DNA from: Magnetococcales bacterium
GTDB lineage: Bacteria > Pseudomonadota > Magnetococcia > Magnetococcales > JADFWU01
Direction of reading: 5' to 3'
DNA length: 64,000 bases
Assembly: GCA_015234045.1 (NCBI GenBank)
Contig: JADFWU010000001.1
Span: forward strand, 62,001 to 126,000
Shown here: positions 6,104-58,381 of the stretch, in pieces
Layout of the letters: each line of letters starts with the position of its first letter
Numbering within the stretch: the stretch's first letter is position 1
Program-made: the position numbers and the translations under genes
Notes under the pieces: generated by a model
Database searches by the model: none
Told to the model about the DNA's origin: nothing
What the model saw: the letters and a program-made list of their open reading frames with translations, nothing else

Positions 6104-6159
6104 CGTTTTTGTTCCTGTTGACGGATGACTGTAAAAAGCGTCACGATAGGGCGTGGGGG

Positions 6160-6434
6160 GTCGTCTAAGATTTGAACAGTCAGTCGTTCCAGCCCGGGTG
6201 AAATTTTTGCTCTGATGATCTGCTTCGCATGTCAAAAGCGGCGCAAAAACATCACCAGGGCTTCCACTCAGGTCGTGATTCATTGTCTAATTTCGGATCG
6301 AAATCACTATATCACCAATGCTTCCACTCAGGTCGTGATTCATTGTCTAATTTCGGATCGAAATCACTATATCACCAATGCTTCCACTCAGGTCGTGATT
6401 CGTTGTCAAATTATGGATCGAGATGACGATATTG
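6160..6434. repeat. Family A repeat with a 60-bp tandem expansion of its right end
   Basis: A family A unit starts near 6160 (GTCGTCTAAGATTTG) and contains the internal hairpin AGCCCGGGTGAAATTTTTGC / GCAAAAACATCACCAGGGCT. Its right-hand part is then repeated with an exact 60-bp period: blocks start at 6251, 6311 and 6371, and the third has several mismatches. The repeat lies between the cupin gene and mnmA, upstream of both. Confidence 0.9.
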
Positions 6435-8990: not shown

Positions 8991-9155
8991 ATATGGTGCT
9001 TTCGTCTAAAATATGAACAGTCATCCGTTCCAGCCCTGGTGATATTTTTGCTCTGATGATCTGCTTCGCATATCAAAAGCGGCGCAAAAACATCACCAGG
9101 GCTTCCACTCAGGTCGTGATTCATTGTCAAATTGTGGATCGAAATAACTACATAC
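8991..9155. repeat. Family A repeat, full-length unit
   Basis: Full unit with the outer sequence TTTCGTCTAAAATATG, the internal inverted repeat around CCCTGGTGATATTTTTGC / GCAAAAACATCACCAGGG, and the right end GGATCGAAATAACTA. The terminal inverted repeats are partly degenerate. Confidence 0.9.
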
Positions 9156-9156
9156 A

Positions 9157-9245
9157 GTAGTTTCGTCTGAAATATGAACAGTCATCCGTTCCAGCTCTGG
9201 TCGTGATTCATTGTCAAATTTTGGATCGAAATGACTATATACAGT
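9157..9245. repeat. Family A repeat, internally deleted unit
   Basis: Follows directly on the full-length unit. It keeps both outer ends (TAGTTTCGTCTGAAATATG ... GGATCGAAATGACTATA), but the whole hairpin centre is missing: CCAGCTCTGG is joined straight to TCGTGATTCATTG. Confidence 0.85.
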
Positions 9246-21339: not shown

Positions 21340-21483
21340 AGGCCCTGTTGACATTCACCATCTTTCGGCCCCTGGCGGCGTTAAATCCGCCTCAAAATGC
21401 TCACGTACTACAAGTACGCTCCGTTTTTTCGTTGGATTTGCCTTGCCAGGAACCGAAATCTGGCGAATGTCAACACGCCCTAG
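21340..21483. repeat. 144-bp imperfect palindrome
   Basis: The left arm TAGGCCCTGTTGACATTC and the right arm GAATGTCAACACGCCCTA are inverted repeats. The symmetry continues inwards (CTTTCGGCCCCTGGC / GCCAGGAACCGAAAT; TTAAATCC / GGATTTG) to a centre near GTACTACAAGTAC. No coding frame is present. It is built like a MITE or large REP-type element. Confidence 0.8.
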
Positions 21484-21510
21484 TAGTTACGTAGTCGAAT
21501 GAATTTTGTA

Positions 21511-21637
21511 CCCGTCATGCCCGCAGAAGCAGGAACCCAGTTTGGTTCTCTGTTCCCAGGATTCCCGCTTTTGCGAGAATCCTGGTACACGCTTTGATGC
21601 CTGTTTCAACCGGCAACTGTGTAACTCCTAATTATTA
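21511..21637. repeat. Family B (GTCAT-type) repeat, copy 1
   Basis: Starts CCCGTCATGCCCGCAGAAGC and contains CCAGGATTCCCGC / GCGAGAATCCTGG, an internal hairpin, then ACACGCTTTGATGCCTG-TTCAACCGGCAAC. The last part recurs inverted near 43590-43630. Confidence 0.7.
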
Positions 21638-21671: not shown

Positions 21672-23537
21672 ATGGATATTGAACTTGTTGAAATTCTGGA
21701 CTTTTTAACCTCCTGTCCGCCGTTTGATATCCTGCCTGAGTCTATTCAACACACTTTGCCTGCCAAAATTTCCATTCGGTATGCCCGTAGAGGTACACAT
21801 ATTCTGGAGCGTGGTGATACGTTGGAGTTTCTTCAGATTATTCGTACCGGTGCGGTAGAGATTTTTAAACAGGACGGACAATTATTAGTCCGTCTTGGCG
21901 AAGGTGATATCTTTGGTGCTCAGACATTACAACGTGGTCAATCCATTGTGACGCGTACTGAAGCGATGGAAGATACGTTGCTGTATCAACTTCCTGCTGA
22001 GACATTTTTTGAACTTTGTGAACAAAGTGAACAATTTAAGGACTATTTTGGCCCGTTGGGTGCTGACCGGTTAAAGCGTGCCATTCAGAATGCAGAAGAT
22101 GGTCAGGAGTCTGCTTTTGGTTTGATGGCGATCTCTTTAGGTGAGATCATTTCGCGTAAACCGGTTTGTCTATCGACTGGTGCGTCTATCCAATCGGCAG
22201 CCAAGTTGATGACAGATGAAGAAGTATCTTCTCTATTATTAGTCGAAGATAAAGATCTGGTTGGTATCATAACAGATCGTGATTTGCGTCGTCGTGTATT
22301 GGCAAAGGGGCTTGATCCCAGCCAGCCGGTAAGCCGTGTCATGTCTGAAGCACCGAAAAAGATCAGTGCGCATCGTTCTTCGTTTGATGCCATGCTCACC
22401 ATGGCTGAAAACAATACGCACCATTTGCCGGTTCATCAGGATGGGCAGATTGTCGGCGTGGTTACGCCCTATAGTTTGTTGCAAAATCAGTGCACATCGG
22501 TTGTTTTCATGGTCAGCAAGATCAATTTGCAGCAGACTATTGAAGGTTTGCAGGATGTGTGTACACAGATTCCACAGTTATTGGTCAATCTATCCGATTC
22601 CGGCACCACGGCACAGAGTATTGGTCATGCGTTGACCGTTGTTACTGATACGATAAGTCGGCGTTTGTTGCGTTTTGCAGAGAGAGCGTTTGGGCCAGCG
22701 CCAGTGCCTTTTGCGTGGGCTGCTGCGGGTTCACAGGCGCGGAATGAGCAGACGGTTCAGTCTGACCAGGATCACTGTTTGCTTATTGATGACAGCTATA
22801 TTCCTGCACAGCATGGCGCTTATTTCGAGAAATTGAGTCACTATGTCAGTGATGGACTCAATATTTGTGGATTTGTTTACTGTCCGGGCAATGCCATGGC
22901 CACTAATTCACAGTGGCGGCAGCCGATACGGGTTTGGCGGCGGATGTTTCGGCGTTGGATTCAGGAGCCGACACCCAAGGCGGTGATGCTGTGTAGTATC
23001 TTTTTTGATCTCAAGTTTATTGGTGGCGATGAGAGTCTATTTTGGTATTTCCGTGACTGTGTACTGGATAATGCCGGAAAAAATAGAATCTTTTTGGCCC
23101 ATTTGGCGGCTAATGCGTCACGAAACCAACCACCGGTTGGATTTTTTCGTAATTTTACTTTGATTCGGGGTGGTGAGCATGATGATACGGTTAATCTGAA
23201 AAAAAATGGTGTCATTCCCATTGTTGATCTGGCTCGGGTCTATTCTTTGGAGAAGGGCATTAAAGATGTTAATACCAGAAAGCGTTTGGAAAAGTGCCGG
23301 GATAGTGGATTGCTCAGTGGGCGTGGTGCAACTGATTTGATTGACGCTATGGCGTTTATTGAATTGACACGCATTCGCCATCAGGCCAAACGGTTGCGTA
23401 GTGGTCAATCGCCTAATAATTATCTACCGCCGGAGGAGTTGACACCTTTTGAACGGGATCATCTGAAAGATGCATTCCTTATTGTTAGAACCATGCAATC
23501 AGCGATGGAACAGAAGTATCAGATTTCTCGATTTTAG
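21672..23537 (+). CDS. cNMP-binding / CBS / DUF294 nucleotidyltransferase-like regulator
   Basis: 621 residues in four parts: a cNMP-binding domain (about 1-135), a CBS pair (about 150-280, with LVGIITDRDLRRRVL), a DUF294 nucleotidyltransferase-like domain with GSQARNEQTVQSDQDH at about 350, and the DUF294 C-terminal domain. The GSxAR...DxD pattern is that of GlnE/GlnD-like transferases, so it may covalently modify a target protein. The ATG at 21672 has GGAGG 8 nt upstream; an in-frame GTG at 21657 would include that ribosome-binding site. The gene family commonly accompanies DUF4212/symporter pairs and a DnaQ-like exonuclease, as here, and may regulate that transporter. Confidence 0.9.
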   Translation: MDIELVEILDFLTSCPPFDILPESIQHTLPAKISIRYARRGTHILERGDTLEFLQIIRTGAVEIFKQDGQLLVRLGEGDIFGAQTLQRGQSIVTRTEAMEDTLLYQLPAETFFELCEQSEQFKDYFGPLGADRLKRAIQNAEDGQESAFGLMAISLGEIISRKPVCLSTGASIQSAAKLMTDEEVSSLLLVEDKDLVGIITDRDLRRRVLAKGLDPSQPVSRVMSEAPKKISAHRSSFDAMLTMAENNTHHLPVHQDGQIVGVVTPYSLLQNQCTSVVFMVSKINLQQTIEGLQDVCTQIPQLLVNLSDSGTTAQSIGHALTVVTDTISRRLLRFAERAFGPAPVPFAWAAAGSQARNEQTVQSDQDHCLLIDDSYIPAQHGAYFEKLSHYVSDGLNICGFVYCPGNAMATNSQWRQPIRVWRRMFRRWIQEPTPKAVMLCSIFFDLKFIGGDESLFWYFRDCVLDNAGKNRIFLAHLAANASRNQPPVGFFRNFTLIRGGEHDDTVNLKKNGVIPIVDLARVYSLEKGIKDVNTRKRLEKCRDSGLLSGRGATDLIDAMAFIELTRIRHQAKRLRSGQSPNNYLPPEELTPFERDHLKDAFLIVRTMQSAMEQKYQISRF

Positions 23538-23539
23538 AG

Positions 23540-23694
23540 GTTTCGTCTAAAATTTGAACAGTCAGCCGTTCCAGATCTGGTGATATTTTTGCTCTGATGA
23601 TCTGCTTCGCTTATCAAAAGCGGCGCAAAAACATCACCAGGGCTTCCACTCAGGTTGTGGTTCATCGTCTAATTTCGGATCGAAATCACTATAA
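23540..23694. repeat. Family A repeat, full-length unit
   Basis: Starts 2-3 bp after the stop codon of the DUF294 gene (GTTTCGTCTAAAATTTG) and ends GGATCGAAATCACTATA, an intact right terminal repeat. The internal hairpin is present. Confidence 0.9.
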
Positions 23695-28997: not shown

Positions 28998-29082
28998 TAG
29001 TGGTTTCGTCTAAAATTTGAACAGTCAGTCGTTCCGGCCCAGGTTGAGAGCCATTGTCTAATTTTTAGTCGAAATCACTATA
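28998..29082. repeat. Family A repeat, internally deleted unit
   Basis: An 85-bp form with good terminal inverted repeats (TGTAGTGGTTTCG ... CGAAATCACTATA). The internal hairpin is missing: CCGGCCCAGGTTGAGAGCC joins the two ends. It lies 10 bp after the SIR2 gene stop codon. Confidence 0.85.
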
Positions 29083-43659: not shown

Positions 43660-43667
43660 TAAGAGAG

Positions 43668-43790
43668 TTCGTCTAAAATTTGAACAGTCAGCCGTTCCAG
43701 CCCTGGTGATATTTTTGCTCTGATGATCTGCTTCGCATATCAAAAGCGGCGCAAAAACATCACCAGGGCTTCCACTCAGGTTTTGATTAA
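43668..43790. repeat. Family A repeat, right end truncated
   Basis: Has the left end TTCGTCTAAAATTTGAAC and the complete internal hairpin, but the sequence after CTTCCACTCAGG diverges. The usual right terminal repeat is missing and the unit runs into TTTTTTCCGTGGTCCT (43791-43806). Confidence 0.85.
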
Positions 43791-43806
43791 TTTTTTCCGT
43801 GGTCCT
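43791..43806. repeat. Recurring 16-mer
   Basis: TTTTTTCCGTGGTCCT is present here, at 48867-48882 and, inverted, at 13385-13400. All three sites are intergenic. Confidence 0.6.
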
Positions 43807-45972: not shown

Positions 45973-46722
45973 ATGGCTACGTATCAAAATAAAGATTCAC
46001 AAGGTGAACCGGAAGGTGAGACCAAGAACCGCGCTAAGATGACGCTTGGTGAGCGCGTTCAACTCTCACGTCAATTTGCCGGTTTAACACAAAAAGAGTT
46101 GGCTGACCGGGCTGAAATTAGCCAGACAGCTATTCATAAATTGGAGTGCGGGCAATCCCGTTCTTCCCGTCGCTTGGTGATCATCGCCATGGCTTGTGGT
46201 GTCGATCCTGTCTGGTTGGAAACCGGTCTTGGCGATATGGCTCCGGGCATCAGTGATCCTGAAAGCATTCCTTTGACCCGCCGCAAGCGCGTCACAGGTT
46301 CTGAAGACAGTGGTCTGCTTGGACCGGCTCGGCTGATGCGTATTCCTTTGGTTTCCTGGGAAGGTGTCAGCGATTGGAAAGAGTGGGCAGATCCACTTTC
46401 ACCGCCCAATGTTCATGAATGGGTTTCTCTGCCTCGTCGTGGCAATGGTTTGACTGTTGCGTTGCGCGTGAGTGATGACTCCATGGAGCCGGAATTCCTG
46501 GAAGGTGATGTAATCATCATCAATTTGGTGAGTGAGTCCAAACATGGACGCTTTGTTGTCGCAAGTACATCAAGCGGTCGTCGTGCGACCTTTAAACAGC
46601 TGATTTTGGACGGTGAAGAGCGCTATCTGAAACCGTTGAATGATCGTTACCCTGTTGCAAACGTCACCGATGATGCCATTATCCATGGTGTTGTGACAAC
46701 CAAGTATCGGGAATACAGCTAA
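45973..46722 (+). CDS. XRE-type repressor with S24 (LexA/CI-like) C-terminal domain
   Basis: 249 residues. The helix-turn-helix spans about 25-85 (LSRQFAGLTQKELADRAEISQ). The C-terminal S24 fold carries the Ser of VSDDSMEPEF (S170) and the Lys of RATFKQL (K208), the catalytic pair of self-cleaving repressors. I do not see a clear Ala-Gly cleavage site in the linker, so cleavage is uncertain. Such proteins control prophages or stress regulons, but no phage genes lie nearby. Confidence 0.9.
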   Translation: MATYQNKDSQGEPEGETKNRAKMTLGERVQLSRQFAGLTQKELADRAEISQTAIHKLECGQSRSSRRLVIIAMACGVDPVWLETGLGDMAPGISDPESIPLTRRKRVTGSEDSGLLGPARLMRIPLVSWEGVSDWKEWADPLSPPNVHEWVSLPRRGNGLTVALRVSDDSMEPEFLEGDVIIINLVSESKHGRFVVASTSSGRRATFKQLILDGEERYLKPLNDRYPVANVTDDAIIHGVVTTKYREYS

Positions 46723-46821
46723 CCGATAGTGACTGATTGGAAGAGGAGGGAGTGGCGTATTCTCTACCCCCTATCCATCTACCCTCCAAATCCAAGCAAT
46801 TCACTAAATGATTTCCATGGT

Positions 46822-47625
46822 ATAGTGATTTCGTCTAAAATTTGAACAGTCAACCGTTCCAGCCCTGGTGATGTTTTTGCTCTGATGATCTGCTTCGCAT
46901 ATCAAAAGCGGCGCAAAAACATCACCAGGGCTTCCACTCAGGTTGTGATTCATTGTCTAATTTCGGATCGAAATGACTGTATATGGTTTTTTCGTCTAAA
47001 ATTTGAACAGTCAGCCGTTCCAGCCCTGGTGATATTTTTGCTCTGATGATCTGCTTCGCATATCAAAAGCGGCGCAAAAACATCACCAGGGCTTCCACTC
47101 AGGTTGTGATTCATTGTCTAATTTCGGATAGAAATGACTGTATATGGTTATTTTGTCTAAAATTTGAACAATCAGCCGTTCCAGCCCTGGTGATATTTTT
47201 GCTCTGATGATCTGCTTCGCATATCAAAAGCGGCGCAAAAACATCACCAGGGCTTCCACTCAGGTTGTGATTCATTGTCAAATTTCGGATCGAAATGACT
47301 GTATATGGTTATTTTGTCTAAAATTTGAACAATCAGCCGTTCCAGCCCTGGTGATATTTTTGCTCTGATGATCTGCTTCGCATATCAAAAGCGGCGCAAA
47401 AACATCACCAGGGCTTCCACTCAGGTTGTGATTCATTGTCAAATTTCGGATCGAAATGACTGTATATGGTTATTTTGTCTAAAATTTGAACAATCAGCCG
47501 TTCCAGCCCTGGTGATGTTTTTGCTCTGATGATCTGCTTCGCATATCAAAAGCGGCGCAAAAACATCACCAGGGCTTCCGCTCAGGTTGTGATTCATTGT
47601 CAAATTTCGGATCGAAATCACTAGA
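46822..47625. repeat. Tandem array of five family A repeats, exact 161-bp period
   Basis: The GTCTAAA landmark occurs at 46833, 46994, 47155, 47316 and 47477, each step exactly 161 bp. Every unit has the left sequence GTCTAAAATTTGAACA, the arms AGCCCTGGTGAT(A/G)TTTTTGC and GCAAAAACATCACCAGGGCT, a 32-nt centre containing GATCTGCTTCGCATATC, and the right end TCGGAT(C/A)GAAAT(G/C)ACT. The first unit's left end is an intact TATAGTGATTTCG. Units 3-5 share TTTTGTCTAAA and ACAATCAGCC, so the array grew by recent duplication. Confidence 0.95.
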
Positions 47626-47640
47626 CATGGTAAAGATTGA

Positions 47641-47678
47641 AAAAAACTCTCCGCCTTGAAAATGGCGGAGAGTTTTTT
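47641..47678. terminator. Strong bidirectional terminator
   Basis: AAAAAACTCTCCGCC and GGCGGAGAGTTTTTT form a perfect 15-bp stem around an 8-nt loop just after the minus-strand cytochrome gene. Confidence 0.95.
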
Positions 47679-47683
47679 CGTTG

Positions 47684-48106
47684 TTATTGAAGGGTCTTTA
47701 AGTAAGCGATGACATCACGTCGATTGGCAGCATTGCGAATGCCGGTGAAGTAGAGGGTATGCTCTGATTCTGCCTGGCCCATTTCACTGTTACTGATGAA
47801 TGCGTTGGGATCTTCGATAAAGGCTGAAAGATGTCCTTCATCCCAGACAAAGGGATTTTCCGCAACTTTATCCATGAAAGCCGCGCTGTAACCATATCCT
47901 TCAGCTGTACCTGCCTCACGGCCATAGACACCCCAAAGTGGCGGACCTTTGCGATTTTTTGCGCGTTTGGTGTCATCGTGGCAGACGGTACAGTGGTTAT
48001 CCACCAGTCGCAAACCGACTTCCATATTGACTCGAAAAGTCCACCACGTTGCCAATCCAACGAGAATGGCGATAAGAACGCCCATCAACAGATTGAGTGA
48101 CTTCAT
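47684..48106 (-). CDS. Membrane-anchored class I cytochrome c
   Basis: 140 residues: an N-terminal anchor (LLMGVLIAILVGLATWW), then the heme motif C39-x-x-C42-H43 (CTVCHDD), with a likely axial Met in the SEMGQAE segment and the family's closing helix (RRDVIAYLKTL). It probably carries electrons in the periplasm to a terminal oxidase or peroxidase. The receiver gene upstream ends 2 bp before its start, an odd pairing that suggests coordinated expression. Confidence 0.9.
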   Translation of the reverse strand: MKSLNLLMGVLIAILVGLATWWTFRVNMEVGLRLVDNHCTVCHDDTKRAKNRKGPPLWGVYGREAGTAEGYGYSAAFMDKVAENPFVWDEGHLSAFIEDPNAFISNSEMGQAESEHTLYFTGIRNAANRRDVIAYLKTLQ

Positions 48107-58212: not shown

Positions 58213-58381
58213 GAATTATTATGGTGCTTTCGTCTAAAATTTGAACAGTCAGCCGTTCCAGCCCTGGTGATATTTTTGCTCTGATGATCTGCTTCGCATA
58301 TCAAAAGCGGCGCAAAAACATCACCAGGATTTTCACTCAGGTTGTGATTCATTGTCTAATTTCGGATCGAAATTACTATAA
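58213..58381. repeat. Family A repeat, full-length unit
   Basis: GTGCTTTCGTCTAAAATTTG to GGATCGAAATTACTATA, with the internal hairpin complete except for a changed right arm edge (CACCAGGATTTTCACTC). Confidence 0.9.

Follow-up and report, generated by a model that had tools for sequence, protein, structure and literature searches.

A dispersed MITE-like element with IS630-like ends is oriented with the inferred direction of replication in a Magnetococcales draft genome

A short palindromic element, present at many sites in the draft genome of a Magnetococcales bacterium, lies almost invariably in one orientation relative to replication. The draft comprises 117 contigs and has no origin or terminus map, and replication direction is read from its GC skew. 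By this measure the element was on the G-rich strand at 139 of 146 sites (P = 6e-33). At sites with an absolute skew above 0.03 the ratio was 126:3, and no full-length copy was clearly reversed. The unit is best explained as a MITE with IS630-type ends, of the IS630/Tc1-mariner type. A sequence-only reading had described a tandem array of this unit and some of its dispersed copies but could not have revealed its most unusual property, this near-absolute orientation along replication.

The array lies in a 64,000-nucleotide stretch of contig JADFWU010000001.1, referred to here as the window. Tandem Repeats Finder placed it at 46821-47622, with a period of 161, 5.0 copies, 97% matches, and 0 indels. 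The step from unit to unit was exactly 161 bp in all four cases, confirming the five-unit array and exact period originally proposed. Each of the five units also contains the inner inverted repeat of about 20 bp that had been noticed, namely AGCCCTGGTGAT[A/G]TTTTTGC, a 32-nt centre, and then GCAAAAACATCACCAGGGCT, with arms of 20 bp. The dispersed single units that had been reported were likewise confirmed, at seven places in the window beyond the array:

6156 to 6311, + strand: dispersed copy with a damaged left end and two extra 60-bp right-end tails reaching 6431
8992 to 9150, + strand: full-length dispersed copy, TA-adjacent to a short copy
9154 to 9238, + strand: copy of the short 87-bp hairpin-less sub-family
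23535 to 23693, + strand: full-length dispersed copy
28998 to 29082, + strand: copy of the short 87-bp hairpin-less sub-family
43662 to 43794, + strand: dispersed copy truncated at the right
46821 to 46981, + strand: array unit 1, outer left end canonical (TATAGTGATTTCG), right end variant (GAAATGACTGTA)
46861 to 46932, + strand: inverted repeat inside unit 1, with arms AGCCCTGGTGATGTTTTTGC and GCAAAAACATCACCAGGGCT and a 32-nt centre, recurring every 161 bp
46982 to 47142, + strand: array unit 2, left end of the inner type (TATGGTTTTTTCG)
47143 to 47303, + strand: array unit 3, the same as unit 4
47304 to 47464, + strand: array unit 4, the same as unit 3
47465 to 47625, + strand: array unit 5, with the outer right end (CGAAATCACTAGA)
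47641 to 47678, no strand: terminator-like hairpin adjoining the array, on the 3' side of the convergent gene at 47684-48106 (-)
58220 to 58380, + strand: full-length dispersed copy

The array is a local pile-up of the ~161-bp MITE and is ordinary in kind. The canonical end claimed for every unit was found at the outer left end of the array only (TATAGTGATTTCG), and the outer right end reads CGAAATCACTAGA. All four internal junctions instead carry variant ends, GAAATGACTGTA joined to TATGGTT[T/A]TTT[C/T]G (GACTGTA meeting TATGGTT). Because the same junction variant recurs at every inner join, the 161-bp unit appears to have been duplicated from a two-copy seed, which supports the earlier view that the array grew by duplication. 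The seed would have been two adjacent copies of the element, to which slippage or unequal recombination then added further 161-bp units. Pairs resembling such a seed were found on contig C47, where two copies 159 bp apart have one TA in common, and at 8992-9238 in the window, where a full copy abuts a short one. The private changes described in later units were also borne out: left-end changes (TATGGTT..) are common to units 2-5 and further changes to units 3-5, and units 3 and 4 do not differ at all. Since those two units are identical, the true number of units is uncertain in the draft assembly. The array contains no open reading frame of at least 100 amino acids, each unit has a weak promoter-like match, and the site is a convergent gap, bounded by a gene at 45973-46722 (+) on one side and by the hairpin at 47641-47678 and the gene at 47684-48106 (-) on the other.

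To catalogue the element, we searched the 3.65-Mb, 117-contig assembly (completeness, 93%) with the loop sequence TCTGATGATCTGCTTCGCAT, tolerating up to three mismatches. This gave 113 matches, compared with 0 for the reversed control. Copies outside the starting contig, on which the sequence-only reading had made its case depend, are present on about 64 of the 117 contigs. A profile applied to stretches fetched around the copies, 944 kb in total and chosen for containing the element, identified 175 pieces at 146 independent sites. The first 864 kb held 74 full-length copies and 11 short copies without the hairpin, and the remaining pieces were truncated or lay at the ends of contigs. Copies mostly occur singly, and clusters other than the array are small pairs or tails. 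Related genomes were searched as well, as had been proposed: no homologue of the unit was found in 60 relatives, and the left-end pattern occurred in the element's own genome but in none of the 47 other genomes of the order. A scan for the pattern in contigs of other genomes returned one lone match, in a Solobacterium MAG, which is within chance expectation, and a scan of viral contigs returned none. Many contigs start or end within the element (C29:1, C27:1, C37:1, C46:1, C59:1, C77:1, C81:1, C116:1, and other contig ends), making the repeat a common source of assembly breaks.

The element has the features of a MITE. It is short (157-161 bp), non-coding, and dispersed in many copies, and it has terminal inverted repeats (TATAGTGATTTCG/CGAAATCACTATA), with more variation in the terminal bases than in the core. 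Its length between the two flanking TA target dinucleotides is about 157 bp. The TA was present at the start and end of full copies at 85-89% per base, and the flanks outside were unrelated. On contig C63, one copy lies inside another, splitting its host at model positions 52-53 with TA on both sides. The TA ends and this nested copy agree with the target duplication of IS630/Tc1-mariner elements. The sole DDE_3 (IS630) transposase match in the genome was a broken remnant on contig C90 (E = 7.6e-18), which scored below the cut-off of the IS630 family model (E = 4.7e-15). Directly after it comes GATTAGAAATGACTATA, which is identical to the two MITE ends at 21/29 and 20/29 positions, compared with a mean of 7.5 for random 29-mers, although the remnant is broken and a search did not recover its left end. 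Neither the genome itself nor the 47 other genomes of the order yielded an intact transposase with these ends. Transposases do occur in those genomes, and when their surroundings were searched loosely for ends, no pair matched convincingly. The earlier suggestion of a mobile element with IS630-like ends is therefore upheld by the TA-bounded copies, the nested duplication, and the similar ends of the remnant, but not by an intact IS630 partner. An IS630-type transposase would have mobilised the element, and the assembly would retain only a broken copy of it.

Two further features concern the element itself. The 87-bp form lacks the inner hairpin and has one deletion junction common to 10 of its 11 copies, as if a sub-family had spread by itself. 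In full copies, variability reached ~0.9-1.8 bits at several of model positions 3-8 and 155, compared with 0.3 bits in the core, and the two variable ends showed no covariation. Gene conversion of the core, repair of the ends, or relaxed constraint are possible causes of this difference.

Among 100 intergenic sites, 46 were in convergent, 36 in co-oriented tandem, 10 in anti-oriented tandem, and 8 in divergent gene gaps, while only two element sites overlapped a predicted (small) ORF. This distribution fits tolerated insertion at gene 3' ends, as described for RUP, BOX, and SPRITE (PMC3049150). Copies persist mainly downstream of genes, above all between convergent genes.

The orientation held in several subsets of copies. 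Within a contig nearly all copies face the same way, and neighbours on a contig agreed in orientation 76:6. Nested and adjacent copies were in agreement too. Classes of increasing divergence were equally polarised (21/23, 22/23, and 22/23), with no trend. All 11 of the 87-bp copies were polarised despite lacking the inner hairpin, which suggests that the polarity is determined by the ends. In stretches where most genes are on the opposite strand, 35 of 37 sites still followed the skew. That the G-rich strand is the leading strand is supported by rpoB, which lies on it (+0.124) and was taken as the marker because 16S and ribosomal L2 are absent from the assembly. Other dispersed intergenic repeats in the same stretches were random with respect to skew (9/16, 11/23, 8/17, 12/22, 7/16, and 8/13, with some seeds overlapping in family), including palindromic MITE-like families starting TTAGGGCCACGG, TAGGGCGTGTTGACATTCGCC, and TAGGCGTTACGCAGTTG. 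A difference in hairpin stability between strands was rejected as a cause of the polarity, the predicted DNA folding being similar for top (-26.9 kcal/mol) and bottom (-28.2 kcal/mol).

The three exceptions at an absolute skew above 0.03 were all fragments (C27:1, C31:76, and C31:22949). The two discordant copies on contig C31, at 22949-22997 and at 76, consist only of left ends of 49 and 58 bp. The first carries TATAGTCATTTC, which resembles the end of the IS630 remnant, and may be a different element or reflect an inversion.

We consider it probable, though by no means secure, that the polarity arises from fork-coupled insertion by an IS630-type transposase that tells the left end of the element from the right. 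The two ends would not be equivalent, and insertion at the replication fork would occur in a fixed geometry, possibly because the transposase contacts the sliding clamp or gaps in the lagging strand. The listed strand would then land on the G-rich strand, the nascent leading strand having the sequence of the lagging-strand template, and polarity would be set at insertion. Our literature search turned up no replication-coupled IS630 or Tc1/mariner element.

The main rival is that the element inserted in random orientation and that selection purged the wrong one because the element has a polar effect on replication, for instance by forming a polar fork barrier or by providing an oriented binding site. 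The copies that survive might then even be of use to the host. We regard this as unlikely but as deserving serious weight: selection of sufficient strength after insertion would yield the same pattern, the near-absolute polarity extends to old and truncated copies, it tracks replication and not transcription, and conservation is higher in the core than at the ends. However, polarity is just as strong in the least diverged copies and in the hairpin-less form, nested and adjacent copies share their orientation too, no covariation was seen in the base pairing, and none of 60 relatives carries the family.

Polarity would come automatically to an element of the IS200/IS605 or REP/RAYT kind, which moves as a single strand (peel-and-paste) by means of an HUH (Y1) transposase acting on the lagging-strand template. 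The listed strand does belong to that template, as in IS200/IS605 (PMC5371812), and the element is able to form hairpins. Nevertheless, this origin is improbable. The genome has no Y1_Tnp (PF01797) gene, in a search whose control was positive in 5/14 known genomes, and this absence of an HUH transposase favours fork-coupled IS630-type insertion. In addition, terminal inverted repeats with TA duplication are IS630-like and unexpected for IS200/IS605, and polarity persists without the inner hairpin.

Slightly less probable again is an RNA-producing or protein-binding array with its function in the repeated hairpin. The array does present a large stable hairpin every 161 bp and a weak promoter-like match per unit. 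Yet no Rfam family matched, and paired counts equalled the expectation under independence for essentially every pair across 74 full copies. This lack of compensatory covariation leaves a conserved RNA hairpin, and with it the earlier idea of the array as an RNA source, unsupported. Moreover, most copies are single, other clusters are small, and the array junctions are accounted for by duplication. Least credible of all is orientation by transcription, in which a copy would be tolerated only if it is aligned with the gene upstream or with the more highly expressed gene: a same-strand gene does lie upstream of 82 of 100 intergenic copies, but this excess comes mostly from convergent sites, where gene layout sets no orientation, and the idea is contradicted by the copies in lagging-strand gene blocks that follow the skew and by tandem gene pairs, which split 28:14 (leading:lagging) with the element, near the background of 132:99 without it.

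Comparison with known systems separates the anatomy of the element from its polarity. RUP of Streptococcus pneumoniae is an IS630-Spn1-derived MITE of about 107 bp, with 108 intergenic copies, a TA target, ends matching the IS630 element, and enrichment between convergent genes (PMC2229807, PMC3049150). Judged by published description, our element is likewise a short, intergenic, TA-bounded MITE with enrichment in convergent gaps, and its ends resemble the end of the IS630 remnant. From this anatomy it is a putative IS630-derived MITE, as proposed for RUP (PMC2229807). In contrast, 60.9% of RUP copies are on the leading strand, equal to the coding bias (PMC3049150), compared with 126:3 here, and by the same descriptions sequence, inner hairpin, and host differ. 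The Bordetella BRE shows no co-orientation with replication (PMC3110155), unlike this strongly polarised element. ERIC and the enterobacterial RU, in the excerpted descriptions, resemble it in being MITE-like, intergenic, imperfect palindromes of comparable length, and those excerpts do not mention replication polarity (PMC2229807, PMC2759123). They belong to another host group, and no Rfam or sequence link to this element was found.

Insertion orientation tracks replication direction in Tn7, via TnsE, and in IS200/IS605, and orientation biases are reported for other insertion sequences with clamp-binding transposases (PMC5371812). Our element resembles Tn7 (TnsE) and IS200/IS605 in this respect but differs in its IS630-type ends and TA duplication, which indicate a different transposition chemistry, and in the lack of a Y1 transposase gene. 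Gomez et al. in 2014 reportedly described insertion sequences with an orientation bias and clamp-binding transposases. Those share with our element a replication-linked bias of double-stranded DNA elements, whereas ours is a non-autonomous MITE whose bias is near absolute beside random control families.

It seems about evenly balanced whether the ~150 copies amount to a compass of fork direction, as either a fork-coupled polar family of IS630/Tc1-mariner type or a former transposon kept as an oriented replication mark. A TA-targeting IS630-type MITE at 126:3 beside random MITE-like families offers a clean natural contrast. The contrast suggests that a cut-and-paste-type system is able to sense the direction of the fork, and it opens end-specific fork targeting to direct testing. 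In practical terms, the element marks the direction of replication in a fragmented genome.

The genome is rich in MITE-like repeats. At least three further palindromic families (TTAGGGCCACGG, TAGGGCGTGTTGACATTCGCC, and TAGGCGTTACGCAGTTG), with ~10-30 copies each in the sampled stretches, are unpolarised and occur at ~21340-21631 in the window and on many contigs. At 6156-6431 in the window and at C49:26309-26528, a full copy of the oriented element is followed by one or two 60-bp tails (model positions 100-160) whose matching left halves are missing. They may derive from adjacent copies through the loss of 99 bp between TAT microhomologies.
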